In this document: positions 1 through 60,262 of the stretch, in pieces
How the letters are laid out: each line of letters opens with the position of its first letter
Numbering within the stretch: position 1 is the stretch's first letter
Source: Strobilurus pachycystidiatus
Lineage: Eukaryota; Basidiomycota; Agaricomycetes; Agaricales; Physalacriaceae
DNA: 64,000 bases
NCBI GenBank assembly: GCA_019915135.1
Contig: JAHLMK010000010.1
Coordinates: 620,001 to 684,000, forward strand
Direction: 5' to 3'
The notes under the pieces: generated by a model
Database searches by the model: none
Told to the model about the DNA's origin: nothing
Seen by the model: only the letters and a program-made list of their open reading frames with translations
Position numbers and translations under genes: made by a program

Positions 1-697
1 CTATTTCTGTCTCCTGAAGTCCCGCTTGTCTTGGCAAAACTCCTTAATGAGTTCTTTCGTGTCTTTAGGCGTTGGTTGGGTTTGTCCTTAGCGCTTGGAA
101 GGTGATTTGTTTTCGACAACTCAGTGACGCCACATCAATACGCGAGTTCCAATGAGGTACAAGGTCCATGATCGGGCCTTTTAGCCAGGTCTATCTTTAG
201 TGATTGGCGGCGGCGGATCGAAGTCCGTTTTCTTCTTTGGTGCGGGGCGTCGGAGCGGAGATCACTATTCCGAAGGCGCCATGGCCCGGAAGAGAGATCT
301 TCTCCGTGATCTATCCTTGGTCGCACGAGTTCTGACTTAGCACGAGTAAACTCCTTGAGCCTTCTTGGTAGAGTATCTCCTGCCTGGGTACTTTCCGTAG
401 TGCTATTTCTGGTAGGCACTTGTCGTTGCGTGACCGACACGGTTGAATGAACTCCTGGTTTTAAGAGTACAACGCTTGGATAAGGATATTTGGAGTTAAG
501 AAGTACGATCGGTCGATCATACCGCGTCCTAAAGGCGTGTATGGTGTTTCCCTTAGTCCTGGAGACTTGCCTGCGTTAAGGTAGTTTCTCCGTGTGTCTC
601 TCTGGTCGTTGTGCTGTGACTGGAAGTCCTGGCATAGACTCCTACAGGAATTGCAAAATTCCTTGGTTCTGGCACTAGGATTCTACAATGCGTATCA
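1..697 (-). mobile_element. 3' LTR of giant element (partial, cut by window edge)
   Basis: Direct repeat of 18522-19218. On the minus strand it starts TGATACGCATTG at 697, the same start as the 5' LTR and as the sister-family LTRs at 7643 and 61808. About 1 kb of it (the U3-distal, R and U5 parts) should lie left of position 1. Differences from the 5' LTR copy are mostly C/T or G/A transitions, which suggests a fairly recent insertion. Confidence 0.85.
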
Positions 698-710
698 TCT
701 CCTCTTGACT
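698..710 (-). other. Polypurine tract of giant element
   Basis: Read on the minus strand, AGTCAAGAGGAGA directly abuts the TGATACGC start of the 3' LTR. This is the expected place for the plus-strand primer of reverse transcription. A similar motif recurs at about 4562-4580 without an adjacent LTR. Confidence 0.7.
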
Positions 711-840
711 TTTGAAATGTCGTCCCCGACATCCTAGTAGTATTGCGAAAACGCTTATTCCTTCTGCCTTGGTGCAAAGCTCCAGACCTTTTGCCGTTCT
801 ATCTTTATCAAGGTCCTTGACAATTTTCACCTTGCCCACC

Positions 841-848
841 TATAAAAA
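841..848 (+). promoter_or_regulatory. TATA box of antisense cargo gene 1
   Basis: TATAAAAA lies 54 bases before the ATG at 895. The same TATAAAAA motif lies 42 bases before the ATG of the next plus-strand gene, so both antisense genes appear to have their own promoters inside the retroelement. Confidence 0.5.
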
Positions 849-894
849 CACCTGTTTTATCTCCTGGGCGTTTTCATCCTTACTTTCCTTCGAC

Positions 895-2851
895 ATGGCT
901 CCCAAGTCCTGGACTTCCTGCGCTTGTCTTTTGCCTTCAGTCCCTTACCTTCCTTCCGCGAAGGAGATCGCCACTCACAAGGATGCTTCCGTGGCCGTCC
1001 TCGCCTACTCCGTGGAATACAATCCTCCTGCGACCACCCCGGACACCTTTACGGTCCTCGGGCTTCGCATGTCAATGGCTCTCCCTCGCCTCAACCGTCT
1101 TGACATCAAAAAGGCCTGCCTCAACATGGAGCTTTCCAAGCAGATCACCGAGCAGGTCGATAAAATCATGGAGGCGGTCTTGGTGTGTCCCTTTTATCCT
1201 TCGTTCATGTCGTTGTTTCCTCAATTCCTCCTAGATGGCCAACACCGACATCAAGTCCGTTCCTGCCGACTCGAAGGTCCCATCCGACCTTGTCTTGTTC
1301 TTTCACAACGTCAAGAACTACCTCGGATTGACGCTCCATCTCCTTGGTATCCATCCTCAAACGCCTTCGCACCACATTGCGCACATCTTCCAACCTTTGG
1401 TGAACACCGCCAAGAAGATGTCGAACGCGCAGTTCCAGCCGTTGCCTGCTGATCATCCCATGCATCCGACCAACGTCTTCGTTAAACCGGACCCCAAGGG
1501 CAAGGTTCGTCTTTCATACTTGTTCGTTAGGTCTTTCTTAACGCCTTACCTCTTCACAGGGAAAAAGCAAGAAATCTCCTGAAGTTATCACCGACGCCAT
1601 GGAGAAACAGGCGGAAGAAGACATCGACATGGATGCTGATGGCCGTGCGCGATTCTTCAAGCGCGAGTATTTTGATTGGGCTGACGATGTTGCAGAAGCC
1701 GACACCGACGGTGAGGAGTCCGTGATTGTCGTTGGTGAGGACGTACGCTCAATCGCTCTATAGCCCTCCGCCTCCAGCTGGCTGATTTCTTCCAACAGAT
1801 GTCCTTGTCCAACAACCTTTTCAAAGAGGCGGAAGCGGTGAGTCGTTTACTACTCCTGGTCCTTTTACCTTCACTTGGTTCTGATTGGGATTTCCCTTTA
1901 GAGCACTTCCGTGCGTTATCTTCCTTTTGCTGCACTACCCAAGATGGACGTTAACACCCGTGTTTATCAGCGCGCCATGCAAACTAAGGACCTCCATGAG
2001 TATCAAGAGTCAAGAGTATACTCGCATACTTGACTCGTCATAATACTCATGAGTATGACTCGTTCTGATCCGCGGATCAAGACGAGTCAAGTCAAAGATG
2101 GGTCGCGAGTATGAGTTTTGGAGACATGAATTTTCATAATAGGTGTATCATCATATATTTCTTGAGTAAATGAATGTTTTGTGAATCCTCTACGTATATT
2201 TAATCAACAACTTCTATATGATAGTCATTCATTATATAAATGGAATGATATACACTGGAAAAGCAAGAGTATCCGTGAGTATTGACCCGTAAAACCCGTA
2301 CTTGTCTTGATCCGTACCCGTATGAGTCAAGTCAAAGAAGAGTCACGAGTATTGGTTTTGAAGCATGAGTACTCGTGTCACGGGTCAAGAGTATACTCGA
2401 GTATTGACTCGTGGAGGTCCTTAATGCAAACCTTGGGATCCCTTAACGGTCAGGAACTTCCTCCTAAGCGCAAGCTCCCCGACGACCTTTCTCGCCGCGC
2501 CGCTAAGGCTGCTCGTCCTTCAACCTTTATGATCGAGCCGGTCTTGCTCAAGCAATTGGACGCTGATACGCCCTGTTACTTGATCTGTCTTTCTCCTTTC
2601 TGACTCCTTGGATATCAGCGCCCCAGTATATCAACGGCTTGCAGGCCGCCTTGGCGCAAGTTCACAAGCGCATAACCCGCTTGGCCGGCGTGGATGATCC
2701 CAATATTTTGCCGGGACTTCTCTGGTTGGAGCATCAATACCGCCACAACATTATCTCGTCTTACAATGAGATCCGGGGTCGTATTCAGTTTGTTTTGTCG
2801 ACTCGGGATTTGTACATTTCCGCCTTAGACGGAGTGGACCAAGTCCAGTAG
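895..2851 (+). CDS. Antisense cargo gene 1 of giant retroelement, unknown function, broken by MITE
   Basis: I do not recognise the family. The exons are 895-1182, 1235-1504, 1560-1742, 1799-1837, 1902-1984 joined to 2432-2574, and 2619-2851. All introns are 44-63 nt GT-AG. When the MITE at 1985-2423 and one copy of its 8-bp duplication are skipped, the exon lengths sum to 1239 nt, an exact multiple of three, with no internal stop, giving 412 residues. The predicted protein has a hydrophobic helical first third, a Lys-rich then Asp/Glu-rich middle (from exon 3) and a basic KRK/RRAAKAAR segment before a helical C-terminus, so it could be nuclear. It lies antisense to gag-pol between the polypurine tract and the next cargo gene, and has a TATA box at 841. 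The clean frame shows it was a functional gene until the MITE landed in exon 5. The start is the first ATG after the TATA box. Confidence 0.7.
1985..2423. mobile_element. hAT-type MITE 1 (439 bp)
   Basis: The terminal inverted repeats start TAAGGACCTCCA at both ends and continue imperfectly with GAGTA-type repeats. The element is flanked by the 8-bp direct duplication ATGCAAAC (1977-1984 and 2424-2431), the duplication size of hAT transposons. The interior is AT-rich, non-coding, and full of copies of ACTCATGAGTA-like and GACTCG-like motifs that may be transposase-binding sites. It interrupts an exon of the surrounding gene. Confidence 0.85.
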
Positions 2852-3304
2852 TTTCCTAAAGGTGGTCTCAACCTCCTCCAAGTCTTAGCCAGTCGTCTAG
2901 TTCCTTCTCCTTTCATGTTTACACTGGCTTCGGATTTTGTTTTATCCCTTGTAGGTCCGATAGCACTTTGTTTCCTGTAGCTACTTTAGTACACAGCCGT
3001 CTCAACACGACTAACATTGTTTTTACTCCTTTTGGCGCAATCCGTTAGAATTCCGGCGATCCTTCCTAAGTCCAGTGATCGCCTTCATCAAACTAAGTAA
3101 GTTCGATCGGGAATTCCCGATCACCTTCGTTGAATCGTTCATCCTAGGTTTTTACAGTGCCTAGGTCTTTTAGTGGTCTTCGGAGTAGCTTGAGCTTTAT
3201 TCCTAGACTCGCTTAAGCTATTTCTTCCTTTGCCTTGAATCGTTACGGCGGCCCAGGCGCTCTATAAAAACGCCAGAGTTGCTTCTGACTTTGCCATAAC
3301 CGCC
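2852..3304 (+). promoter_or_regulatory. Intergenic segment with TATA box of antisense cargo gene 2
   Basis: This spacer of about 450 bp separates the two plus-strand cargo genes. TATAAAAA at 3263-3270 lies 42 bases upstream of the ATG at 3305. I see no open frame or repeat of note. It presumably holds the terminator of gene 1 and the promoter of gene 2. Confidence 0.45.
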
Positions 3305-4420
3305 ATGCCTATCCCGATTCTCCCTTTGTTCTCTGATACTCGCCTTCGCGGCATCCCTTTGCACAACCTGCTCCGGAGGAGCTCGAGGCCCTACTTGGCG
3401 AATTGGCCTTGACCAGCGCCTTGGAATTGTATACCTTCGCTCGGCGATTCAGCATTGTTATCCGTTACGACGACGGAACTCTCTCCACGGTTGACAATAC
3501 CGCGGCGGTAGCTGCCTTAGAAGAGCCAGTACTTCATTTTGGTGAAGGGAAGCCCTTGGATGTTCCGTCCTTGCGGTATTTGTTGTATACCTTGGTGCGT
3601 AACAACGCCTTAGGTCCTTTATGCCTGCTTACTTCCACTCCAGCGTCGTCTGGCGTATATGTGGGATCCCGCCTTCTACGAAAACCCCGCCATTTACCTT
3701 GGCTTTCGCCGGTACTTCTTTCCTTTGTACTATGGAGCCGTGGAGCTCTGTAAGTCTTGGTTCCGAGCCGTCAATGGAAGGACCCTCGACGGTTTCGCCC
3801 TTGATAACTTCCTTGGGTATGGTTTGCTGGACATCCCGGGCGTGCATCCCGACTTGATGAAGGACATTATTCCCCGGTTCATGGTGCGCAAACACCTTCT
3901 CCAGAATCGCCTTGTCTGATTATTTCTTCTAGGTGGAATCCACCTTTGGCGGTTACATGGGATTCGATTCCACTCTCCGCGAGTTGATTGTCGACCCAAA
4001 TGCCTTGCGAATCCTCCCTGTTCAATACGACCAAACGCCTCCGTCCATTGTAACCGTTATGAAGTGGTGGCCGGAGTTTCAGCGAGCAAATTCTGCCTTG
4101 TATGGTTTTCCTAAGTTGGGAGCCTTGATGCGACCTACTCGTCTTAGGCGTTTGGCTCCCCACGTTGAAGTTCCTTCAAACACCGTTCGTCAACTCCTTC
4201 CCGCGCTTTGCACACCTTGTAACTTCTGTGCTTGTAGCGAGCCGATGAGCACTTGTCTTTTGTCACTCCATCCTTCTGGGAAATAAACTGGTCCAACGCC
4301 TCCGCACTGGACTACGAACTCCTGGAGAACTATATCATGATCCTGGATGTTAGGTCTTCGGGTTTCTTCTATGAACGCTTAGCGCGCCTCCCAGTGGGTC
4401 CAGATTGGAATTGTTTTTAG
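3305..4420 (+). pseudogene. Antisense cargo gene 2 of giant retroelement, unknown function, one frameshift
   Basis: I do not recognise the family. The exons are 3305-3594, 3644-3883, 3933-4184 and 4238-4420, with introns of 49-53 nt and donors GTGCGT, GTGCGC and GTTCGT. Exons 2-4 are each a multiple of three (240, 252, 183 nt). Exon 1 is 290 nt: the frame that starts at the ATG hits a stop, and the frame feeding exon 2 opens about 30 codons in, so one base appears lost between about 3345 and 3400. The inferred protein is about 320 residues, rich in aromatic residues in exon 2 (YMWDPAFYENPAIY, YFFPLYYGAVEL) and ends GPDWNCF. It looks like a compact globular protein with no evident signal or membrane segment. 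It has the same orientation, TATA spacing and intron style as the gene at 895-2851, suggesting a linked pair. Confidence 0.6.
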
Positions 4421-4631
4421 TCTTATTTCTTCATAGAAACTCCTTTACCCGTCTAAAATTAACCACCTTAGTCGTTTAGTCTACTTAGCCAGGTCCTATA
4501 AAATTTCTTCTTAGTTCATTTTCATACACACTTGTATTTCCCCTTAGACCTTATACAAAATTCCTCTTGACTTTTGAGAAGTTTACCCTGCCTGGCTTGG
4601 CTTTTTAAGGTGTTTTTGCCTTACTACCTTA

Positions 4632-5443
4632 GAGCCTGTTCGGCACCCGGATCCTGCTGGGATCCGCTGCCGGATCCGCCGTAGGGCTGAGCCAGCATCC
4701 ATCACGGTGTCTGGTCCGAGCGCGTGCAGACAACTCTCTTTGCGCAAATGCGTTCTATACAAACATTGCGCGGTAGCTACGTCTCAAAAGTTGTAAATGA
4801 GGTCCAAGTATGTACATCTATGTTCTCTGGTGGCCTAGGGGGGCCGAGGTGGCCAATGTCAATGTGTTGAACACAAATTTAGTATCACACCCCCAAGGTG
4901 GTTTTAAATATCCATTGTCACGGTAGAGGTCCCTCTGAAACGATTCAGAGAGTAGCATAGCTATCCTATAGCCTTTACATGAGCTGCGCTCATTGACTTA
5001 GCTCAAGATTCACTGCTACGTGTGGCAATAAATATACACCAACATTCTGACTTGCTCCATTGTGTTGCATGCCCCGAGTAAAGAAGCGGCCTTCATGCAG
5101 GTTGGGTAACTACAGACCCCATCATTGTAGATGATTCTCTTAAGACACACGCAAGTATGAGGTGAATATTACCTATCAGAGTGGGTATCAGTTCATTGAA
5201 GTTGTTACTTGGTCGGGAACGGTCCTTTTAAGGCAGGAAGGGTGCCAAATTCTTTCGGATACAAAGGGACATATAATATGTTATCTACTGGACATACGGG
5301 AGGGCTTGGAGATACTACAATGCGCGTTGAATGAAGAGAAATTATCTGCGCGCGCTCGGACCGGACACCGTGATGGATGCTGGCTCAGCCCTACGGCGGA
5401 TCCGGCAGCGGATCCCAGCAGGATCCGGGTGCCGAACAGGCTC
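4632..5443. mobile_element. PIF/Harbinger-type MITE (812 bp)
   Basis: Long, nearly perfect terminal inverted repeats of about 95 bp (4632-4726 against 5349-5443) begin GAGCCTGTTCGGCACCCGG. They are flanked by the 3-bp duplication TTA (4629-4631 and 5444-5446). A TTA/TAA duplication and a G(A/G)GCCTGTT terminus are typical of Tourist/Harbinger non-autonomous elements. The interior has no convincing coding frame. Confidence 0.8.
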
Positions 5444-5627
5444 TTAGGTCTCAAGGTCTTTTTCTTTCTCCTTAGAAATTCACACTTTTGATTTCAAAGA
5501 AAGCGGATTTTTATTTTTGTAGGCGGGTGCGTGCGGTAGATGTAAAGCGTATATAAAAAAATGTTCAAAACTGTTCGTATATCATTCGAAGTAAAACGGC
5601 GGCGGCGACGAGGAGAGGTGCGACCCA

Positions 5628-8600
5628 CTATTGTTTTCCCAAGATTACCGCTTTGACCAGTTCCCTATCTTCCCGTTTGAGCTCGAAGAACATGCTGAGT
5701 ACCTGATTGACGGTGGCGCGCGATTCTTCGAGACTGCGGGTGTCGGGGACCAGGCGACTGGAGCCTTCGCCTCGGTTGTCTAGGCGCGGGTTTGGTTCCT
5801 TGAGTTGGACTGGGGACGCCAGGCTGGGCGTTTGACCAAGCGACCGTTGCGTCAGGCGACGCGGCTGGTCAACTTCCGACTTTGCATCTTCTTCGGCGTC
5901 CGGGGTCGATTCTCGCTTCGCCTTTCCTTTTCCTTTGGATTCCACCCCCTTCTCCACCTTGGCCTTCTTCGCTTTCGGGGGGGCTTTCCTTGGTTCCTTC
6001 CATTTGCGAATACCTTGTTCGAACGGCACCTTGTGTTCGGCCTTGGCGAGGTGTCGGCTGGCGGTGTTGACGAGCTTCTGGACCAGTGATGGGGCGAGGT
6101 CTTTCCACGCGGGCGGAATCTTCTCCTCTTTCCAAACCACTCGACACGGCCCCCACTGCCCCTTCTTCTGCTTACACTGGTCACAGGAGAACAAATTGCT
6201 CCGATTCGCCTGACGCGCGCTAATGTAAGTACACGTCAAGCCCTGTTTGTGACAAGGGATGCAGTGCCCCTCGTTGTCGTAGAGCGGGATGCGCTTCGTT
6301 TCGCGATTGTCCAAGACGTAGGCGTACCCGTCATCAAAGGGTTCGAGTTTGTCTCCCTCGTCGCTGGCCTCCGCGTCGTTGCTTTCCTCGTCTGGAGTGG
6401 GGTCTCACTTGCGTTTCTTAGGCGCGACGGCGTGGGGAGGTTCCGGGTCTTTGGGTTCGACCTTGGCGACACTGCGAGGGCTGCGCGAACCTTCAGTTGA
6501 GTATAAGGGAGCTATAAAACGGCGGACCACATACTGGTTCGCGGTTTTTGGGCCCAGCCCAAGTCCTCGTACCGTCGCCCTTTGTCTGGGTGCGGGTGGC
6601 ACATCTACTGACATGGCGGTCTTTGTGGGGGAGGGAGGGGGCGCGAGCGCGGTTACTCCAGTGGTCGCCTTTTTTGCGCGGGGCGTCTCTTCATAATCCC
6701 CTACCAGCTCGTCTTCTTCTTCTTTCGCCTCCTCCTCCTCCTCGTCTTCCTCGATGTCTCGCAGCGATTGTGGCGTTTTTACTGGAGTTGCACTGCGAGC
6801 TTTGGGCGGAGGTGGGAGCGGCGTCGTTGGTCGTTTTTGGAACTCCAGGTTGTAGGTATTCTCGTCGATGAGATTCCCCAGTACATACCTGAAGTTCCCA
6901 TAGATGGGCGCACCGGCGGATTCCTGTTGCATTCGAGACATTACCGTCCCCCAAAACTTCTTTGCTCGAGGAGTGTCCTGGACAAACGTCCAGAGGTGCT
7001 CAAGGCGGAAGAACACCTGTTGTGCTTGTTCCTCTGTGAGCGCGACCTGTACGTCGGTGAAGACATCCTTGTTGTCGAGAAACGGGGCGCGGAGAGTTTT
7101 TTGTGAAGGAGGGGGCAAGTTTTTCGTCGCGCAGACTGCAGTAGCGGCCAGTTCGACTTTTTCCAGCGGGGAGAGCGAAAGGTCCTGCTGTCCTTCGAGC
7201 GCATCTTCGAATTCGACCCAAAAGGTCGCGTTCGGGACATAGTGGTCGTACCCCGCGTCCTCCAGAACTGTGCGTAGACGTTCCGTTCGTGATGCTACTC
7301 GCAGGGCTACACTCTGAGTCCACGTCACCCTCCAGGCCTCCGGAATTGACATGTTGAATACGAAGTTCAAGTAATCAAACAACGGCCTGGGCGGTATGGT
7401 CAACTGGTGCGAGTTTTCTGGAGTTTCTTTCTAAAACCGTTTTGTTTTAGTTTTCTTGGTTCTTTTTATCTTTTGTTGTTCCGAGCCTGCTTACCGTCTT
7501 TTTGCGGTCTTCTTCGCGCTCTTCAGTTGTCGGGCCCGGACTCTCTTCCTTGGTCGGGGACGGTGACTTCTCCTTTTAGTAAGTAAGTTCGCCTTCCCTG
7601 ACTGCGTTTCACGACGCGTGCTTACCTTTGCTTGGGTGGCGCTGATACGCAGGGTACTATTCCAGTACTAGAAACGGGGAATTTTGCGATTCCTGAATAG
7701 CCCAAAGACCTTAGGAACCTCCAGTCAAGTACTTAGGATAGAGCACGCAGGAGTTACTGCCTTGACGCGGGCAAGCCTCCAGGACAAGGTCCAGGCGCCT
7801 TAACAAGTCCTTTAGGACAGGCGCGATCAAAACCTTTGATCACCTTCATCCGAATATTCTTATCCGCGCGTTGGATCTCTTTCAAGATCCCGTACCTTTG
7901 CGTGTACCTTGTACTACAGACGATGTGCTATAACCATTTGCACCCAAGGAGGGTCCAAAGGTCTCCAAGCGGTTCAGTTAGAGCAACCCAAGACCTGCGC
8001 ACCTCAACCCAAAGACCTGGAAGGTCCCGAAATAGTTCAAGGACGTCACAACCCTTCTGGGGAAATAATCTTCGGAGCTGTCAAGGACTCCGAACCGACG
8101 CCTTCCGCTATGCCGATCGATCATGATCCACGATCAAGGACCACCCCAAAAGCAGGGTGTATTACCACTTTAAGAAAGCACTCCCCTGTAGTGTTTGCGC
8201 TCGAAAGGACGTTCTTAACGATCTCCATCCAACCTAACCACAAGAAAGCAGGTGTCCGTAGGACCTTGCATCGTAAAGATACCTAAGGATCAAAGTCCTT
8301 ATTGGACCTCGATCTCCTGGGCCCAAGGATTATACCATACCGCCAAGGTGGCGTATATGGCTAAAGGACCAAGCGGCCTGTCCGCAGTTGTTTTGACCAG
8401 GGATAGCCAATAAGAACCCAGCATTTGTATGACTCGAATGTCCGATGTATCCGATCCTAGAATAGATGCTTACTCAGTAGGAGACCACCAGTAGTATAAA
8501 AGGGCCCAAAGGACCCATATTTCGGTAGCTTAGAGCCCCCTCCAGTAGCCGCTAGTCAGACGCAGCCATTGTAGTGAATCTATCTCGAGTTTTGACTCAT

Positions 8601-9351
8601 TTCTACAAAGAACCCAAAGACCCCAAAGACCCCAAAGACCTTTCCAAGATTTAAAGACATCAGGTGTTGCCAAGCTCCTTGAAAGACTCAAAAGAACCTT
8701 ATTCCGACGTACCAAGTCAAGTACCAACAAATCTACTTGGTGTTAGAACCTTGTATTCGCAAGAAGGCCGGTTTGCAAGTGGTTCTGCCCTGCATTCACG
8801 CTATTTCATGAAGTACTTTCCTTTGAGGAATAAGTTGAGTTTGAACGAGTGTTGTCAACGTCTGAGACACCTTTCGGAACCTTTGGTCCCGGTGCAAGAC
8901 ACTAGAAGTTTGGTTTAAGTGCAAGAAGGAGTCCTTATTGTTAGCAGTCCAGTGGCGTAAAACCTGCGGTAGCGGCCTGACGATTCCAAGACAAAGTCCT
9001 TGTACACCAGAGCACTTGATAGGTAGAAGCTACATTGCCTCGCGCTGTTTAAGGTCTTCATACGTCAAGAGGTTCGGCCTACGACTTCAAGGTTTTCTTG
9101 TGTCATTTCGATCAGAATCCCTACACCCCCAAAAACAACTCGTAGTTTAACTACAGCATTCAGAATACATCTCTATTTCTCCATTACCCAAAAGCACCTT
9201 GTTCTCTCGAACCTTTGTGCACCCCAGCTCCCTTACAAGGAGTACTAGTTGTGATAAGAATTGATAGTGTGGTTAGACGATAGCTTCTTTTCAGAGGTCT
9301 ATTCCGAACTTGCACATCAGCGCGGTCTTGCTCTTGTTCTTGCTCTGACAT
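5628..9351 (-). CDS. Sense-strand cargo gene of giant retroelement, cysteine-containing, one in-frame stop
   Basis: Exon 1 starts at the ATG at 9351-9349. It is split by the solo LTR at 7643-9319 (parts 9351-9320 and 7638-7626, dropping one GCGC duplication). Exon 2 is 7572-7495 and exon 3 is 7430-5628. Exon lengths are 45, 78 and 1803 nt, all multiples of three, giving about 641 residues with a single TGA at 6405-6407 (codon 383), probably a mutated CGA. The N-terminus is highly charged (MSEQEQEQDR). A helical domain of about 200 residues follows, then a proline-rich stretch and an acidic run (EEDEEEEEAKEEED). After the TGA come cysteines spaced C-X2-C-X6-C and C-X2-C-X9-C, then Lys-rich sequence and a helical end. 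The cysteine layout resembles a zinc-binding cluster but does not fit Zn2Cys6 exactly. It lies about 500 bp downstream of the integrase frame on the same strand. Function unknown. Confidence 0.7.
7643..9319 (+). mobile_element. Solo LTR of sister giant-element family
   Basis: It starts TGATACGCAGGG and ends TTGCACATCA, with a 4-bp duplication GCGC on both sides (7639-7642, 9320-9323). It is nearly identical to the LTR at 61808-63477 and, inverted, to 60263-61807, and it is a diverged relative of the surrounding element's own LTR. TATAAAA at 8495-8501 is the likely U3 promoter. No internal region is attached, so it is a product of LTR-LTR recombination. It splits exon 1 of the cargo gene that starts at 9351. 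Confidence 0.9.
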
Positions 9352-9845
9352 CGTGGTAGTATAAGAAAAGGTGAACGGACTTGTTTGCGCTTCTTTTCTC
9401 CTTGCTTACCACATTGTTCTGTTGCTCATCACTTTTAAGCTTTCGCGTTTGTGGCCGGGCACAGCCCTGCCCGAGCTGTGCGTCATAGTCTCAAGGGGCT
9501 ATGACCCTTTTTCTTTCCATTCCCTCGTTACGAAGCTCTCATGTACCATATTTAGAGCCCAAAATTTCATTTTTATTTCAAAATTATAGTCTTTAGAATA
9601 AATGGGACCATTGTCCCTCTATTCCCTTTTTATTTTTTCTGATGACGTCCCCGTCATCCTGCCAGAGCACTTGGATCATTTCGGACACTACTGGCTCAAC
9701 GGCTGAGCACCTCGTCTTGGACTTGGTTTCAAACCCAAGCGCCGGTTCGAGTTCCTCTGCTGCCAGTCTTGCATCCTTAACTGTCATTTGCATCCAAATC
9801 TTTTTGGAACGTCTTTATCGTTTAGACTTTTAACCTTTTTGTCTT
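9352..9845. other. Spacer between integrase and sense cargo gene
   Basis: This stretch probably carries the promoter of the minus-strand cargo gene. A minus-strand frame of 66 codons (9793-9593, starting MQMTVKDARLAAEELEP) is open and lies immediately downstream of pol. It could be a short extra product or the decayed end of pol. GC-rich inverted repeats are visible near 9455-9510. I see no other feature. Confidence 0.3.
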
Positions 9846-11479
9846 TCAAGTAGTTTTCGCAATCGTATCCAACGCTTTTCCGACTCCGCGACTGATACGC
9901 CTAAGCCTAGAGAAGAATGTTTCTCCTAAAGCAATAGGATCCCTTCTGGCCACGAAGGGGATTACTCGGAATTGAGCTACCTTATCCCTCCAGATGGTGC
10001 CATCCAGCTCACATACCACATAATTCCCTGCGGATGTCCTGGAAATCACCGCAAAAGGTCCCATAAAGCGTTCTTTAAACTTGGCGTTCATTTCGGCTTC
10101 GATCCGGGTGTTTCGTACTAACACTAATTCACCTGTTTTGAATACATAACGCGGAATGCTGTTGTTGAATTCGTCCATAAACTTCTCCGCTGCCTTCTGT
10201 TTGTTCAGAAGGACTTTAGACTTTAGCCTTGCCGTATCACCTTTGTGTTTTATTAACTGCCTTGCTTGGAGTGCAACCAAATCCGAGTGCGATACAAGGT
10301 GATCTGGCATGTCCACTAGCCAAGTAATCTCCACCAGGTCCATAGGCATTATAGGTTCACAGCCCGTTACTGCGTGGAAGGGAGAAGTTCCTATACTCCT
10401 TTTGATAGTGATTCGTTCTGCCCATAGGATCTTGTGTAGATACTCCGGCCAGTCTTCCGGATTTCCTTTACACACCTTAAAGAGTGACTGGCGAATATCC
10501 CAATGTCCTCTCTCGACTTTACCATTTGCCTGTTTGTTATAGGCGGTAATTAGGATACCCGTGATGCCATATTTCTCCTCTATGTGTCTAAGGGCTTTCT
10601 TGATAGCTGGACCATTGTCCGTTACAATCTCCTTGATGCAGCCCCAGCGGCAGAGAATGTCCTCAAAGATCCCTAGTGTTTCCGCTGTTCATCTCGGAGA
10701 GCTTTGGCTTCTGGCCAACCTGTCAGGCCACACCTTGCCACGGTAACAGCGTTGAATCCCGCCCACTTGGATGGTTGTTTCTTTTTGGCTGAATGTTCTC
10801 CGGCCTTGGGCATTTGGAAGGTGTCTATGTAGGCCCTTTCGAATATCCCAGGTGTAGAGGTGATGGTTGGCGCTATCTTTATGTTTCGTTTTTGTCTCTT
10901 TTGGCATATAAGGCAAGATCGCACATACCACCGTATGTCTACCTCCATCCCTGGCCACCAGAACCGTTTGGTAAGTAGCTGAAGCACCGAGTACTGACCT
11001 TTGTGACCAGCTCTGTCATGCATATCTTTACAAATTGGAATCCGTTCCTTTGGGAGGAGTACACGACGGAGATTCCCATCTAAGTGAGACCTATACAGTT
11101 TTTCGTGTCTGATTGAAAAGTCCTGACTCCATTTTTCGAAGTCTTCATCCTCCTGGACTTTACTCCCGACTAAGTGTGGCTGGAGATCAGGCAACCTATT
11201 CTCCCAAAGGCGTTCTCGCTTGCTTTTTACTAAGCTAGGGAGCTCCTCGATCTCCATCCACTCCTCAATGTCCTTGATACCAGCCAGAGCGGAAGTCCTA
11301 ACTGCCTTTGATACTTTCATATGTTTTGGCAAGAGACTTCTGGCTATTTCCTGACTGTAGCCTCCCCTAGTATCGATATCATATCTGAATGTCTCAAACT
11401 CCAGAGGTTTGTCTTCTGTCTTCTGTCGGAAGGTCCTCAGGTTCTTGATATTCAAAACTATTGATTCGATCGTCCTCAT
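9846..11479 (-). pseudogene. Integrase domain of giant element pol (frameshifted)
   Basis: Two overlapping minus-strand frames (11479-10673 and about 10640-9846) together give a complete retroviral-type integrase. A zinc-binding HHCC module comes first (HDRAGHKG, then CLIC). The DDE core follows, with D in YIDTFQMP, D in VTDNGP and E in GKVERGHW. The C-terminal domain has FKERFMGPFAVI and later a basic tail. The three catalytic acids are present. A frameshift near 10680 separates the first Asp from the rest, so this copy would not make a continuous protein. The gene is the last part of pol, 3' of RT and RNase H as in Ty3/gypsy, and no chromodomain is visible. Confidence 0.85.
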
Positions 11480-13685
11480 CCCCTTGAGCGGGTCTGGGTA
11501 TTACTTCGTCGTTCTCCGAAGCAGGACGGCGGCTAAGACCGTCTGGACCGTGGACTTTCCCTGGTACGTGTATAAGCTTGAAATGGTACATCAAAATCTC
11601 CTCTGCCCATCTTTGTAGGTTGGCATTGGCCAGGGAGTCAATATTTGACAGCATCCCCTTGATATACTTAGCATCTGTTTCAATCTCTAGTTTTCTACAA
11701 CCTAGGAGATAGTACTTACACGCGGACAATGCCCGGAACAGACCAAACAGTTCCCTCTTTACTTGGGAGTACCTGGCTTCTCGGTCGTTGAGCGTTAAGG
11801 ACATGAACTTGGCATAGTATCTTTTCTTTGGGTCATCAGGATCTACTTGGGATAGGTAATATCCTACCGCTTGGTAAGAAGTATCTACCGACAAGGTGAT
11901 CAGAGTTGACCATTCGTAATTCAAGGGTTTTAGCATCGGACAAGTCCTAACTGCTTCCTTGAGGAGGTCCATACTAGCTTGTTCAATATCCGTCCATTGA
12001 AACTTTGTTATGTCCTTAGTCAACCGGGTAAGAGGTAGGGCTTTCTTTGAGTAGTCTTTGACAAAGGCCCTGAAGATCCCCGCGGTCCCTAGGAAAGCTC
12101 TAACTTCTGTCAGGGCCTTACAAGGTGGCCAATCAAAAATCACCTTAACTCTTTCTTCTGCCGGTTTCCTTCCTTCATAAGTGCAGACATGTCCTACGAC
12201 TACTATTTCTTCCGCACATATGATGGCTTTATGTCCAGAAAAAGTACCTCCCGCATATTTCATTTGTTGTATAATACGATTCATATTTAGAAGGTGTTCC
12301 CAGACAAAGCGCCTAACTTCTGGATGCCCCGGAAGCGTTTCATAACTTCCATCCGGCTGTACATATCTAGTGGCTGGGCCACGGACAGGTACATCATCAA
12401 TATAAGGTCTTGTGAACGCCGGTATCTCATCCATTAGAATGGTTGTAACATTGTCGTGAAAGATCGGAACCGAATTGGTCCATCCCATAGGTAAAGTCTT
12501 TAATCGTAAAGCACCATAAGGTGTTGAGAAGGTAGTCATATCGCAAGAGGCAGTGGCTAGTAGCCGTTCATCATACCCGACATACAAGTCCAGTGTACCT
12601 CCACAGGCTCTGCCTGCAAACGCTTCAGCCAACTCCTCTGTAGCAGGAGGCAACCCCGAATGTGCGATGGTTACCGCGTTAAGGGGTTCCAAGCTATGTA
12701 CCAAACGGAGTTTCTTTCCATCCTTTTTCACTACACAGAACCACCTTGAGCGATATGAAGAGTTCGAAGGTTCATATACGCCTGAGTCTAGTTTGTGCTT
12801 GATTATCTTACAGACTTCATCATAGATTCCTGGGGGTATAGGTATGTTCCTTAACACCCACGGAGTATGTGGAATAACGGGTATATCGACAGGTGGAAAG
12901 TACTCTGGGTCAAAATGTCCTTTTTCCATTTCCTCCCAGGCGAATCCCGCATTCTGTCCACACATAAGTTGGTCTACAATTCATCTTTCCACCGAAGTCA
13001 GAAAATCTCCAGGGTGGTCCGCTTGTAGTTGTTCACGTCTTTCCGCAGTATACCTCCCAGTTGGTACGAAGGGCGGGGGATCTGGACTGAGTTCAGGCAT
13101 TCCTGCTAGAGGATCGCCTTTGATATGTCGTTTGATCCTGAATTCTTCGGGTAGAGTCCCTAGATGGGCTTTGGTTTTCAGCGCCATCGGTTTATACTTT
13201 TTCCCGGCGAACACGCCTTGTACTGGACGTTGACTTTCTAGTTCCAGGAACTTGTCCTGTGCTTCCGTCACATAATCTTTAGGTAGCGTAACTGAAAGTC
13301 CTGAGAATGATTTGTGCAACTCCTGTGGTACCCCATAGAAGAGATTCATGGTCACTGTGGCGTGTGACTTAGTTCGTTCTTGATTTTCGGCAATTCCCTT
13401 TATGTTAAACACCTTTTGAAAGCCTTGTACCTTGGGTGTATTGATGTCTTTTAATAAACCCCGAGGCGTTACCAGGCTAGCTGGTACAGTTCCTGGCACC
13501 GTCGAGGCTTTCATAAAGGCATGTTGTTTCCTAAGGCTTTTTGCCGCCTTGTCTATGTACGCAGGAGATTTCTTCAGGTAGAGGGAGGTTAAGGCCCCTT
13601 CTCGGAAGTGTGCTTCATTTTCTCCTGGTACCCATGTTTGCTTGACTTCTACATTACCATTAGGTGATCTTTCCAGGATCAACAC
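11394..13685 (-). pseudogene. Reverse transcriptase and RNase H of giant element pol
   Basis: The frame 13685-12984 (pre-RT region) continues after one in-frame TGA (12981-12983, probably from CGA) as RT. RT motifs: SRWFCVVKKDGKKLRLVHS, then TFSTPYGALRLKTLPMGWTN and the active site YIDD (about 12400). RNase H follows, with D in SVDTSYQAVGYYLSQ, E in RELFGLF, D in IETDAKYI and D in GPDGLSRR. The YIDDVPVRGP version and the following WPPCK...VRAFLGTAG motif are typical of a gypsy lineage very common in Agaricomycetes. The polymerase residues are intact; only the upstream stop and the flanking frameshifts disable it. Confidence 0.9.
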
Positions 13686-13705
13686 CGCCTCTCCGTAGGC
13701 GTTTC

Positions 13706-15100
13706 CTACTTCCTTGAGTCCAGGTGAAAACCCTGTTGCCCCAGTGGTAACATATGCCTAGGTATTTGTCCTCGTCGGTACGACGGTATGGTCAACTTCT
13801 TGCCATTGGTATTATCTGTCAGAGTTCCCAAGGTGTTTCCATTGGACAAGTTCGTAATTACCAGGTTGGATACAATCTCGAATGGTCTACCTAATAGGAC
13901 TTCATAGGCGGGGTCCTCCAGTACATGTAACTGGAGGTAGTACACAATCCCTTCGAAGTCAAAGGGTACATTGCGGGCTAACCCAAGTGTACTAGTCCGT
14001 CCTTTATCCGCGCTTTCCATGGTTATTTTGAAGTTGGGATCATAAGAAACCCCTAGTTCTAACGCAGCTTTCAGCGAGATTGAGGCGATTTGCAAACCCC
14101 CATCAATGAGGCTTTCCTTCTTTCCGTTGCAGTTTATCATAGGCCAGAAAGTCCTTAGATCAGCGTTTTCTGGTGCAATGTTTCCCGTAGTCATGTGGAA
14201 TGGTCCAGTATATTGCCCTCCCGTGAGGTTTATGAACTGTTCCACCGCATCGTGAACTACAATTCCTCCAATCGGTAAGTTGTCTCGTGCTTGTAAGTTA
14301 ACTGAGTATAACTCCGGTTGGTAGTCGTCTTGTACCGTTTCGGTTAATTCCTCCTGTTGGAGTACCAAAACCGGCGCATTTTGTTTTCTAATGAAGTCCG
14401 ATATGCTTCGCTGCCACGGGAGATTCGTTGCTAAGAGAGCTTCCGGAAGTAAGAACTTCCATGCTTCTCTCCAGCTCGGATTCTTGTGTAGCAATTCCTC
14501 CGCTAAGCTGCGGCGTTGGAAACTTTTGACCTTCTGCTGAGGGTGTAAGGTTTTCTGGTTCGTTGGTGTACTCGAAGGTAGAGTTGAATCTACCTTAGGC
14601 TGCGCTGCAGGCGCAGGTTCTTCCATAGCCAGAATCTCCTCAAGAATTTCCTGATCCACAGGAGGTATTTCTTGAGTGACTTCGGGTTTGGTGAAGGTTA
14701 CCTTTGGCGATACCGGGGCTTTAGGAGGTATTACCACGGAGACCCGGTCCCGAGGCCAAGGTATTTTTGTCTTTTCCGGTGTTGAAACCGGTTTGGAATG
14801 ATTATCTTTATTACTTTGTCGAGTTTGAACAGTCAACTGGCTCTCCGGAGGAGTCTGTGCACTAGGCACTCCTTCCTTCATCAAGCCTTGCCGAAACCCG
14901 AAAATGGTTCGCTACTGAACTCGCTTTCCTGGGGAGTCATTTGCATATATACCGAGGGATCCGACGCGAATTCATCTTCTTGGGATTGGAACGCGGAGAC
15001 CTTGGTTGCATTTTCTTGTTGGTATTTTTGTACCTGTTTCCAAGGACTTAGCGGTTGCTTCGCATTGGTCCTTTGAATGGGCTGTCCATTTTGTAAGTGG
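13706..15100 (-). pseudogene. Gag-pol junction and aspartic protease of giant element
   Basis: The minus-strand frame 14884-13706 holds a Pro/Lys/Gln-rich linker followed by a retropepsin-like domain. The motif ESLIDGGLQIASIS stands where the DTG/DSG catalytic loop is expected, and YEVLLGRPF corresponds to the C-terminal ILGR motif. Having DGG instead of DSG or DTG is unusual. The short frame 15204-14881 bridges gag to this part, and a one-base indel in a GGGTTTT run near 13720 separates it from the pre-RT frame. At least two frameshifts here are probably decay; the first might mark a natural gag-pol frameshift. Confidence 0.7.
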
Positions 15101-16242
15101 TAGATGTTTGTCCCCCCTGGTTTGAATATATGACCTTGGGTTTCACAAATTTTTTTACCGGACAATTGGCGATTATATGTCCCATGTGCCGGCAGAAGTA
15201 ACATCTTCCATCATTTACTACAAACTTGTTGCCTGGAGGAATTGCACCTTGCGGGGCCTTATAGACACCATTAGGCAGATTGGCCGGAAACGAGACGCCA
15301 TTCGTTGGAGTTTGTAAATACACACTAGGTGTTTCTTGTACATAGCCTTGCGAACGCAGACCTTGAATGTTGGTCCTCTGCAGGCTCTCCAAGACTGCCG
15401 TCAAGAGTTTCTGATCATTCTTTCTAGATTCCTCTCGATCTTTCTCCCCTTTCTGGATAACGTCCTGGAGCGAGGCTATACGGTTCAGGTATTCGTCCAG
15501 CACTTCGGTCTTGACACGCGAAGTGGGCATAGGAACTAAGTCCCTGGAAAACGCGCTCGTGGTCGGGGGACCAGATACCCATTTGTCCGTGAGGAAGTAA
15601 TTGGAGACTGCCTTGGCTACTTGATCTAAGGTAAAATCATACGTTGGAGTAGTTCCGGCGACTGCTGTCTTCAACACTTCCTGTCTTAGGTCCCCTAGGA
15701 CATTGTGCCAGATTCCTTCCGTAAGGGAGGACTTTATATACTCAATAGCACCTTTGTTGGTTACCTCTCCACTCTGAATCAAGGCTTCCAGAATATGGAG
15801 GACTTCGCGCGAGAACGCTTCCCAATACTGTTTGTTATTAACAGGCCGGGAGATATAAGGTTCCAAAGCGTCCTTGAGGTCACTAGGGACATACTCCGAA
15901 TCGTTCTTACCCTTCGAGTAGGAGGCTAAGATTGATTCCTTGAAGTCTGCCCAAACACCTTTTGCATAGTCTGCATGTCGGTGCCAGCGTTTCCTCTGTT
16001 CATGGCCTGCATAGAAGGCAGCCATCTCCATTTTGGTTCCTTGTTCTTTGACGTTCGAGACATCGAAGATCCAGTCACAAGTCGCGAAGAATTCCCTAAT
16101 ATCTTCTCCTGTTTTGCCTTTACACTTGGGGGCGTTGTTGAAGAAAGGTATGGGAACCTTTTTGTCCTTGATTTCTGCCTTTGCCTCATCACTGAGTTCG
16201 TCAGAAGGGATTAACTTTCTAACGGCAGCCATTGCGGGCATA

Positions 16243-16497
16243 CTGTAGTATTTTGACCGTATCTTTTGGTCACAGGTCACAGACCTCTTTGAAATGAAGA
16301 TCTGAGCACTTTGTCCCAGGTCACAGACAAAAACCTGAGGTACACAAGGCTTAAAAAGGAAATTTTTCTCCGCCCGCCTGATAGCGGGCATACAAATAAG
16401 GCAATTCCCGCTTAATTTGTAAGAAATGAAGATGTGTCCCGGTGAAGATGAGAGGTCACAGGTCACACCCCATGAAGATATGGTCAAAACACTACAG
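16243..16497. mobile_element. Tc1/mariner-type MITE (255 bp)
   Basis: The inverted termini are CTGTAGTATTTTGACCGTAT and its partner, starting CTGTAGTGTTTTGACCATAT when read from the right end. They are flanked by TA on both sides (16241-16242 and 16498-16499), the target of Tc1/mariner elements. Inside are two direct copies of a GGTCACAGGTCACA-type motif. It sits inside gag without changing the frame once removed. Confidence 0.8.
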
Positions 16498-16784
16498 TAG
16501 TGTTGGTTCGTGGGTTGGAGTTTCCGAAGTTAATAAACGTAGGAATCGGTGGTAAACTGTCGTCGTCTTCTAAACTAGTTAGAGGACTTCCAAAAGGTGT
16601 GGAGTTCGTAGAACTAGGCGAGATTTCGGAAGCTGAAGATCGCCTTTGGCTGGTAGTAGCTCGCGAAGGTGTTTCAGGATCTGAAGTGGCTCTTCTCCTA
16701 GTAGATGCTTGGGGCGTTGGTGGTACTTTTGTCCCACGTTTCGACTTTTTGGACTTTGGTGTTGACAGGTTCACTAAACGCCTT

Positions 16785-17224
16785 TAGAGATCCTCACGAG
16801 TTATTCAATGATCTGAACCTTGATCCTCAGAGAGGATATCCTCTCCAAAATTAAATAAACCTTGATCCTTTCAATGATCCTTAAGTTTGGATCATTGAAC
16901 AGTTCGAATCAAGGATCATTGAATGATCCTTCTATGTTTGGGTGATAGATGTCTGATGTCTGATAGAATATGCATGCATAATCATCAATACGTACCATTG
17001 AAAGCTGTTTAAGTACTGTGAAAGCTTTTCTGTACTTGTATTTGCATAACGTTAATGATTCAACAATGATCCTTCAATGATTTTTACCTTCAGTGAATGA
17101 ACCTTGATCCTTACAATGATCCTTAGGTTCGGATCATTGGCATGTTAATGATTTGAACTTCGGATCAAAGTCAAGGTTCGGATCAAGGATATCCTCTACT
17201 TCTAATGACTCGTGAAGATCTCTA
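16785..17224. mobile_element. hAT-type MITE 2 (440 bp)
   Basis: Terminal inverted repeats TAGAGATCCTCACGAGT (left) and TAGAGATCTTCACGAGT (right, reversed) are flanked by the 8-bp duplication AACGCCTT (16777-16784 and 17225-17232). The interior is crowded with CAATGATCC/GGATCATTG copies in both directions, typical of subterminal binding sites in hAT elements. Non-coding. Confidence 0.85.
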
Positions 17225-17489
17225 AACGCCTTTGAGCTGCAGCAACTTCTTGGGGAGTTCCGTTGAAGAGAGATCCGGCTGTAGGTTGTTTTGTTCGAAG
17301 CCGACTTGCTATCTCAGAGTTTGTAGGACTTGATGATCCTGCAATGACTGGTTTCGCTTTTGGTGGTGGCGGGTTTGCTTGGTTCTGACTGTTGGTATAA
17401 CATTCAGAGTTCCTAGCGGCCAGGTCGTTGTTTGGAATTTAAGACTTTGCAGATGCCTTGGTAGATTTCGTTGAAATCAAAATATATCA

Positions 17490-17509
17490 CCCCCTTGCGG
17501 TGGGCTCTA
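17490..17509 (-). other. Primer-binding site of giant element
   Basis: Read on the minus strand, five bases after the LTR end, the sequence AGAGCCCACCGCAAGGGGG corresponds to TGGAGCCCACCGCGAGGGGG in the second element (63483 onward). The latter starts TGG, matching a tRNA 3' CCA end. I cannot assign the tRNA. Confidence 0.55.
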
Positions 17510-17514
17510 AAATA

Positions 17515-19218
17515 TGATATGCACGTTCGAAATAGACCTCTAAAAAGGGACTATGAAATCTATCCTATCTATCCTTATATCTCACTAATACTCCTTGGGG
17601 GAGCGAGGCTGATGTAGTTGTTCAAAGGAACAAGTACTTTTGGTACTGGAACAATAGAGATGTATTCCGAACTTGCGTTCGAGTAGTTTTAGGGGGTGTA
17701 GGGAGATTGATTCACAAAGTCGAACAAGATAATCTGAAAGTCGTAGGCCAAAGTCACAACGTACGGAGACCTTAAACAGCGCGAGGCAATGTAGCTCCTT
17801 CTTATTGATCGTTCTTTTATACAAGGCGATTGTCTTATGGCAGGCCGCTACCGTAGGTGTTTATGCTACTGGACTGCTACCAAGTAAGGCGATTTCCTTG
17901 TCCTTAAACCAAACTTCTAGTGTCTTGGACTGGGACCAAAGGTTCCGTAAGGTGTTTCAGACGGTAACAACACTCGTTCAAACTCAACTAAACTCCTCAA
18001 AGGCGAATACTTCACAACAGAGCGTGATTGCAAGGCAGAACTACTTGCAACCCGGCCTTCTAACGAACACAAGGGTCTAACGCCAAGTGGTGTCGTTTAG
18101 TATTGTCTTAGTGACTTGGAGGATAGGAACCGATGAGTTCTTCAAGGAGTTTGCTAACACCTGATATCGCCTAAATGGTTCTAAGGTCTTTTTGGGGCTT
18201 TCAAGGTCTTTTGGGTTCTCTCTAATTCAGAGTAAGTTGAGTCGAAACTCGAGTTAGATTCACTACAGCGACTGCGTATTACTAGCGGATACTGTGGGGG
18301 CGCTAAGCTACCTATCTACTGGCGCTTTCTGGCCTTTTATACTATTCCTACTATTCTATACTGTAAGCGGGTTTACTACTTGTCGGGCCTCTCGGAGGTC
18401 GAGTCATTTTGTACTAGCGTCCTGATTGGCTATCCCTGTTTGAAACAGCCGACCCGGGAGAAGACTGAACACTTGGTCAGCGCCAAGTGCGCCACAACAC
18501 CGATCTGGCTCTTCCTCAAGTCTATTTCTGTCTCCTGAAGTCCCGCTTGTCTTGGCAAAACTCCTTAATGAGTTCTTTCGTGTCTTTAGGCGTTGGTTGG
18601 GTTTGTCCTTAGCGCTTGGAAGGTGATTCGTTTTTGACAACTCAGTGACGCCACATCAATACGCGAGTTCCAATGAGGTACAAGGTCCATGATCGGGCCT
18701 TTTAGCCAGGTCTATCTTTAGTGATCGGCAGCGGTGGATCGAAGTCCGTTTTCTTCTTTGGTGCGGGGCGTCGGAGCGGAGATCACTATTCCGAAGGCGC
18801 CATGGCCCGGAAGAGAGATCTTCTCCGTGATCTATCCTTGGTCGCACGAGTTCTGACTTAGCACGAGTAAACTCCTTGAGCCTTCTTGGTAGAGTATCTC
18901 CTGCCTGGGTACTTTCCGTAGTGCTATTTCTGGTAGGCACTTGTCGTTGCGTGACCGACCCAGTTGAATGAACTCCTGGTTTTAAGAGTACAACGCTTGG
19001 ATAAGGATATTTGGAGTTAAGGAGTACGATCGGTCGATCATACCGCGTCCTAAAGGCGCCTATGGTGTTTCCCTTAGTCCTGGAGACTTGCCTGCGTTAA
19101 GGTAGTTTCTCCGTGTGTCTCTCTGGTCGTTGTGCTGTGACTGGAAGTCCTGGCATAGACTCCTACAGGAATCGCAAAATTCCTTGGTTCTGGCACTAGG
19201 ATTCTACAATGCGTATCA
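17515..19218 (-). mobile_element. 5' LTR of giant element (1704 bp)
   Basis: On the minus strand it begins TGATACGCATTG at 19218 and ends GTGCATATCA at 17515 (TG...CA). Its 3' part is homologous to the LTRs at 7643-9319 and 61808-63477, while its first 500 bases are more diverged. A TATA motif (TATAAAAGG on the minus strand near 18340) is the likely promoter driving the element RNA leftwards. At 1.7 kb it is a long LTR for a fungal gypsy element. Confidence 0.85.
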
Positions 19219-60217: not shown

Positions 60218-60262
60218 GGTCCAAACATAAGTACAAGTGCAGTTAGCGTCAGAAAAGCTCGC

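Follow-up and report, generated by a model that had tools for sequence, protein, structure and literature searches.

Two antisense genes and one sense gene between the integrase and the 3' LTR of retrotransposons in the basidiomycete Strobilurus pachycystidiatus

Do three genes that lie beside gag and pol inside a long terminal repeat (LTR) retrotransposon, two of them antisense to pol, belong to the element, and what might they do for it? The question is raised by a 64,000-nucleotide stretch of the genome of Strobilurus pachycystidiatus (Basidiomycota, Agaricales, Physalacriaceae; assembly GCA_019915135.1, contig JAHLMK010000010.1, positions 620,001 to 684,000), hereafter referred to as the window (C10:620001-684000 in the 51.8-Mb genome). 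A sequence-only reading had proposed that the element at the start of the window represents a retroelement family with extra genes, and that these genes are cargo. The first part of this proposal was supported, in that the genes, here called A, B and C, recur throughout the family and, in the same order, in two further families, and show purifying selection. On balance, the sequence comparisons slightly favor an ancestral and conserved C-B-A module between the integrase and the 3' LTR, the proteins of which would act in trans, perhaps as nuclear regulators.

The element spans 20,225 bp from LTR to LTR and has the minus strand as its sense strand, and the window starts inside its left LTR. The order from 5' to 3', which runs from right to left in the window, is LTR, primer-binding site, gag, pol, gene C in sense orientation, genes B and A in antisense orientation, polypurine tract and LTR, in agreement with the one sense and two antisense genes recognized earlier. 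The features are located as follows:

1-697, minus strand: window part of the 3' LTR, which extends 1,007 bp to the left of the window (L009:8994-10000)
698-712, minus strand: polypurine tract adjoining the 3' LTR, as read in the sequence
895-2851, plus strand: gene A, antisense to pol, with exons 895-1182, 1235-1504, 1560-1742, 1799-1837, 1902-2565 and 2619-2851
1985-2423: insertion within gene A, not in sister copies
3305-4286, plus strand: gene B, antisense to pol, with exons 3305-3594, 3644-3883 and 3933-4286
4633-5442: 810-bp insertion with terminal inverted repeats of about 115 bp, not in the C1 copy
5628-7352, minus strand: gene C, sense, one exon, with an N-terminal part, an acidic/basic linker and a Zn2Cys6-like cysteine pattern
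7643-9319, plus strand: solo LTR of a second family (F2) in opposite orientation, not in the C1 copy
9846-14911, minus strand: pol in several broken frames, with a weak protease match, reverse transcriptase (RT) region, RNase H and integrase (H2C2 zinc domain)
15048-16241, minus strand: gag, first ATG at 16241, with weak zinc-knuckle matches under the cut-off
16247-16497: insertion directly upstream of gag, a gap in sister alignments
about 16790-17218: insertion in the leader, a gap in sister alignments
17492-17509, minus strand: primer-binding site, 5 nt inside the 5' LTR, with two changes relative to sister copies
17515-19218, minus strand: 5' LTR of 1,704 bp, TG...CA, from the LTR comparison

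In total, 19 places in the genome matched the integrase of this element at 96% identity or more (two C18 rows split by an insertion were counted once), and these are referred to as family F1. All family counts are places found, taken from lists in which only the best candidates were scored and from which fragment rows were excluded, and the figures for genes B and A are lower bounds. Genes B and C were recovered in 19 of 19 F1 copies and gene A in 18. Gene C was located within 6 kb of the integrase in 18 copies and at 14 kb on the same side in the remaining one; gene B was located within 8 kb in 17 copies and at 12 and 28 kb, again on the same side, in the other two. For gene A, a count within 12 kb gave 17 copies, one of which (C27:283810) had, judged by strand, been credited with the gene of its neighbor, and the resulting 16 are complemented by two genes farther off. 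Conversely, for 54 of the 59 places listed for gene B, an integrase row of these families, fragments included, was no more than 9 kb away. The other five, which comprise two F1 copies split by insertions and one truncated copy, were 12, 12.7, 23 and 28 kb away or, at C5:547339, had no integrase row nearby but an adjoining gene C.

Related integrases fell into two further families. F2 (78-83% integrase identity) was found at 52 full-size places, and among the matches listed at least 36 had gene C, at least 33 had gene B, 4 had gene C only and 15 had neither. F3 (68-73%) was found at 23 places, 19 of which had a C-like gene within 7.5 kb downstream. The detailed comparison rests on one copy from each family (L038 for F2, L040 plus L042 for F3), in which the order and orientation C-B-A were as in F1, with two C-like genes in F3 whose mutual identity is 27-33%. 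Identities between F2 and F1 were 90.5% for RT, 74-81% for the integrase, about 40-57% for gene A (73% in one stretch), 42-56% for gene B and about 29-35% for gene C, and those between F3 and F1 were 67-73% for the integrase, 34-43% for gene A and 29% for gene B. Pol evolves far more slowly than the accessory genes, which have nevertheless stayed in place. GT-AG introns of the same phase were compatible in F2 with all five introns of gene A and the second of gene B, and in F3 with the fifth of gene A and the first of gene B; the first intron of gene B in F2 was not resolved by the GT-AG intron script.

Relatives lacking the genes, which the sequence-only reading had regarded as counter-evidence to such a family, do occur in F2 (at least 15 plus 3 copies, with two deletion junctions). 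They arose secondarily, by internal deletion, and part of gene A is still present in them. In L039, only a remnant of gene A separates the integrase from the LTR. Its junction was matched at 92% identity or more by 15 of the best 40 of 115 candidates, and 13 of the 15 F2 places with neither B nor C are among these copies. L041 keeps gene C and has lost gene B and most of gene A, and its junction is common to 3 of the best 40 places scored, which are three of the four F2 places with gene C only. The derivatives amplified after the loss of the genes. Because copies of this kind have spread, the genes are dispensable in cis: either full copies provide them in trans, or movement as such does not require them.

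The suggestion that all three genes contain introns holds for gene A, with five introns and 409 amino acids in intact sister copies, and for gene B, with two introns and 295 amino acids, and fails for gene C, which is one open frame. TATA-like motifs at positions 840 (gene A) and 3262 (gene B) precede the respective start codons, at 895 and 3305, by 55 and 43 bp. The ratio of nonsynonymous to synonymous substitution rates (dN/dS, omega) was 0.029-0.209 for gene A (15 pairs from six copies) and 0-0.077 for gene B (21 pairs from seven copies), with values of 0.10 and 0.072, respectively, for the window relative to C15. Variable sites at codon positions 1, 2 and 3 numbered 4, 6 and 37 in gene A (37 of 47 at the third position) and 8, 3 and 50 in gene B (50 of 61). 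When C15 was compared with C6, omega exceeded 2 in the other two forward frames of both genes, and one reverse frame also had low values (0.145 and 0.066), which are taken to mirror the changes at third positions. For comparison, omega was 0.045-0.094 for RT and 0.156-0.189 for gag (window relative to seven sister copies), and 0.241 for the integrase in a longer and less similar alignment of the window with C12. Introns differed at 24 of 378 sites and the spacers at 19 of 348 and 20 of 271, which is below dS, and dN for genes A and B (0.013-0.014, window relative to C15) is well under the intron divergence. These patterns show strong purifying selection on genes A and B. Among the candidates scored in the protein collection, no homologs of genes A or B were identified at E<=0.001, a search in which intron-bearing genes may be missed, and a Pfam scan gave no match for either gene to TRP28 (PF04195) at E up to 1.

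In unbroken copies, gene C is a single open frame with a length of about 612-630 codons, and an intron is not needed. In the window, its first ATG is at 7350-7352 and the frame is open up to 7430; the start codon in F1 is uncertain. The proteins of F1 and F2 contain the pattern CX2CX6C...CX2CX9C, with a loop of 15-17 residues, and basic stretches; the C-like open reading frames (ORFs) of F3 have a longer loop. The Zn2Cys6 pattern is CX2CX6CX5-12CX2CX6-9C, with a shorter loop than in gene C of F1 and F2, the cysteine pattern of which recalls that of fungal Zn2Cys6 proteins. Two relatives of gene C were found in the protein collection (68% and 45%), and a scan of gene C against IMG/VR gave no match. 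Cysteine-cluster ORFs with a spacing like that of gene C and no Pfam match were also observed outside the F2 LTR at L041:762-1709 and 3233-3658, and one of the C-like ORFs of F3 (L040:4198-4941) matches DUF7179 below the threshold, with an E-value of 0.00043.

Within one allele of gene C, omega was 0.12-0.22. One allele class, consisting of the window, C1:3885363 and the two C27 copies (4 of the 19 F1 copies), has an identity of about 29-39% to the other F1 alleles, and dS between them is near or at saturation. In 100-bp blocks, the identity of C1 to C15, C19 and C12 was 32-64% across all of gene C and mostly 90-100% in the flanks beyond the border blocks, with recovery within about 200 bp after the gene. 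Alleles with saturated dS are located in elements with flanks that are mostly 92-100% identical. Comparisons of C15 with C19 and C12, and of C19 with C12, gave about 49-86% (92% in one block) over the N-terminal third to half of gene C and the upstream spacer, and mostly 90-100%, at lowest 86%, beyond this N-terminal dip. Some pairs also dip to 73-80% near the integrase end. Gene C of C15 is 58% identical to that of C6, yet C6 and C19 are 97-100% identical and C15 and C19 84.5%; the figure of 58% probably reflects a frame change in the C6 copy. The block comparisons show that elements which are alike in other respects have exchanged alleles of gene C as a cassette, and from the sharp borders we infer template switching between co-packaged RNAs.

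The element itself is an LTR retrotransposon, with two TG...CA LTRs, a target duplication, a primer-binding site and a polypurine tract. As stated in the sequence-only reading, the LTRs are nearly identical: both are 1,704 bp long and 99.0% identical, with 17 differing sites of which 15 are transitions. Five sister copies have only 0-7 differences between their LTRs over about 1,696 sites and are therefore recent insertions. The primer-binding site and polypurine tract were also rightly placed at the inner LTR edges, the former in altered form in the window. In the three sister copies examined (C4, C6 and C12), the primer-binding site is perfectly complementary over 18 nt to the 3' end, plus CCA, of a tRNA-like gene with multiple copies, and this gene end is identical at 13 of the 20 places that matched the search pattern. 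One such gene (L043; C8:1061494-1061640) has an intron and, by eye, the anticodon TTT, and the 13 identical ends are mostly located on C8 and C13; ARAGORN, run in bacterial mode, did not call the tRNA-like gene that matches the primer-binding site.

Matching target duplications, which had been anticipated at the outer ends, are imperfect in the window element (ACGC/GCGC) and exact, with 4 bp, in all five further complete elements with scorable ends (C6 GCGT, C19 CCGT, C18 GCGT, C12 ACGG, C1 CCGT). Exact 4-bp duplications also surround two solo LTRs, one in the C1:5155001 stretch (GCGG) and one of family F2 within the window (GCGC/GCGC). Three bases could be read in the C4 copy, and these are consistent, and the C15 copy, which has an LTR in common with its neighbor, could not be scored. 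In view of its flanks, the window copy may have a recombinant origin. Every duplication that was readable on both sides (5 complete F1 elements and 2 solo LTRs) has a central CG, and CpG-directed integration of F1 and F2 elements is possible.

Among the domains of pol, RNase H profiles (window 11397-12980) and Integrase_H2C2 (window 10676-11500, E 2.6e-19) scored above the Pfam cut-off, and the latter also follows RNase H in the F2 copy. The rve core was under the cut-off (E 0.099 in one scan, no match in the second) and the protease match was weak (E 0.088). The RT region was placed by position and conservation because no reverse-transcriptase profile scored in the Pfam scans of pol. The predicted order, with RT-RNase H upstream of the integrase, is that of Ty3/gypsy elements.

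The copy in the window has decayed, and its large size is partly due to this. Five insertions, which were not found in the sister copies compared, account for about 3.6 kb (the C1 copy alone was similar enough to be compared at 4633-5442 and 7643-9319), and five sister copies measured from LTR to LTR are 16,577-17,081 bp long. The earlier description of a giant element thus stands in so far as the element is large, with about 3.6 kb of the 20.2 kb to be subtracted as insertions and 16.6-17.1 kb in sister copies. A length of 16.6 kb with so long a region between pol and the LTR appears unusual among gypsy elements of fungi. A nest of unrelated insertions as the origin of the 9-kb region was ruled out, as the sister copies have C-B-A without the insertions. 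The 440-bp insertion in gene A has inverted ends (TAAGGACCTCCA) and an 8-bp duplicated target and is presumably of hAT type and MITE-like (miniature inverted-repeat transposable element). The ends of the 810-bp insertion are AGCCTGTTCGGCACCC.

In addition to the insertion, gene A in the window has lost a splice donor, a 4-bp deletion affects exon 1 of gene B and one in-frame stop interrupts gene C. Of the eight F1 copies read in detail (the window and seven others), gene A is open in 6 and gene B in 7. The gag-pol region had been described as complete, which does not apply to the window, where pol is broken into several frames; a frame of 1,303 codons is open at the integrase in eight F1 sister copies. 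A supposed sister element starting at 61808 turned out to be an LTR of the second family. Two F2 LTRs lie head-to-head in inverted orientation there (60260-61807 and 61805-63477). Elsewhere, neighboring F1 copies with a common LTR form an array at C15:424001-444000 (L018/L019), and an F1 5' LTR at C1:3870001-3880000 (L030) is split by a multicopy repeat of about 1.56 kb that matches window positions 22387-23948.

How could such a module work? Genes B and A would be transcribed from promoters of their own on the opposite strand. Their introns would survive reverse transcription because the genes are antisense to the genomic RNA, in that splicing of the sense RNA cannot remove introns of the opposite strand, and gene C, being sense, would have none. 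The accessory proteins would then act in trans, and derivatives with gag-pol only could spread beside full copies. Gene C probably encodes a nuclear nucleic-acid-binding regulator of these elements, either an activator or an anti-silencing factor, with the products of genes A and B as its partners or as separate regulators, and a swap of the C allele would let an element change its specificity while the rest is kept. A regulatory or anti-silencing role appears most likely for the module, and a role in the particle next.

Several observations weigh against this interpretation. The intron script covered only the neighborhood of the expected places, and some introns have alternative ends. The dS values of genes A and B (0.13-0.19, window relative to C15) are above the intron divergence, and synonymous sites are therefore fast and omega is somewhat understated. 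No Pfam family scored above the cut-off for genes A, B or C; Zn_clus remained under it for gene C of the window (E 0.054) and for one F3 ORF (E 0.57) and gave no match for five other C-type sequences (two L019 pieces, P0001, P0002 and L038). The predicted structure of gene C, with a mean pLDDT (predicted local distance difference test) of 38.7, was unusable. Finally, the spread of copies without the module also fits a module that is wholly dispensable for transposition.

A bolder version of the trans-acting module, which we regard as possible but tentative, makes gene C a specificity module: a nuclear zinc-cluster factor with several ancient alleles, swapped by template switching either in the N-terminal part or as a whole cassette, with conserved genes A and B as trans partners and module-less derivatives that parasitize full copies. 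If so, the elements would change their recognition of LTR targets, host silencing or rival elements in much the way that recognition domains are exchanged in restriction systems. The deep drops of identity over gene C with recovered flanks, and the window-type allele in a minority of F1 copies, could also mean that gene C is a factor for self-recognition or competition, between elements or against a host repressor, with alleles under frequency-dependent selection and shuffled by template switches. However, gene C is under purifying selection within an allele, plain recombination with other families would leave such blocks too, and the dip near the integrase end shows that exchange or gaps are not confined to gene C, which makes this reading rather unlikely. 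The same rather low probability is given to a function of the three proteins in the particle or its transfer, as env-like or capsid-accessory proteins, instead of in regulation. The place between integrase and 3' LTR is one that env-like genes occupy, according to the part consulted of PMC7264820, and trans-complementation by common proteins would explain the deletion derivatives, but the Pfam scans of the accessory proteins, in which no transmembrane prediction was included, identified no envelope family, gene C has the Zn2Cys6-like pattern with basic stretches, and two antisense genes suit separate or regulated expression.

Two further explanations are much less probable. If antisense transcription itself mattered, as copy control at the RNA level or through double-stranded RNA, the proteins would be incidental. 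Antisense promoters are known in retroelements (PMC7264820, in the part consulted) and the TATA-like motifs upstream of genes A and B would suit them, but the strong selection on amino acids, the third-position bias and the protein homology kept between families make this very improbable. We consider it least likely of all that host genes were captured as a cargo that benefits the fungus. The intron-bearing structure is that of ordinary genes, but nearly all listed places of gene B are close to an integrase of these families, compatible intron positions in three families argue against recent capture, the genes diverge along with the element families, and none of them matched a Pfam family above its cut-off. 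Nothing in the analysis shows a host benefit, and A, B and C are better termed accessory genes than cargo. Returning to the regulatory module, a single genome here contains three families with recent copies that are nearly identical, proteins under strong selection, and deletion derivatives and allele swaps that arose naturally. The need for the genes in cis or in trans and the basis of specificity thereby become testable in a fungus, and retained introns may serve as a signature of antisense genes read from the opposite strand.

In the literature searched, with subscription papers outside its scope, we found no basidiomycete element with a C-B-A module and no precedent for three conserved genes in combination with retained introns and a swappable cassette. 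VANDALs are DNA transposons. The VANC protein of Arabidopsis VANDAL elements, as described in the part consulted of PMC5735166, offers a functional analogy only, as an element-encoded, diverging and trans-acting anti-silencing factor with sequence specificity; for gene C this analogy is a hypothesis. LTR retrotransposons of bdelloid rotifers also have extra ORFs after pol (captured ORF3s), which are env-, DEDDy- or GDSL-like, and none of those named in the part consulted resembles A, B or C by name (PMC5408684). A survey of 59 fungal genomes, in its consulted part, mentions additional domains only where they belong to nested "complex transposons" or lie inserted within pol (PMC3248453).

Antisense accessory genes themselves are already known. 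They have been described repeatedly in LTR elements, without known function (PMC7264820, in part). In fungi, Boty of Botrytis cinerea has the antisense gene brtn after pol (PMC7264820 and PMC8365987, in part, citing Zhao et al. 2011); Boty is an ascomycete element for which those parts name one antisense gene, compared with genes A and B by description only. Also close are the plant Ty3/gypsy elements Grande, RIRE2 and Retand, which likewise have a long region between pol and the 3' LTR and conserved antisense genes that are present in most copies and of unknown function (PMC7264820, PMC11963269, both in part). The antisense gene of Grande has a promoter of its own (PMC7264820, in part), and in Retand, antisense ORFs that contain TRP28 (PF04195) are present in 97% of the clusters (PMC11963269, in part). 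Compared with Retand, the element described here has no TRP28 match, and combines two antisense genes and a sense cysteine-cluster gene with seven introns and a swapped C cassette.

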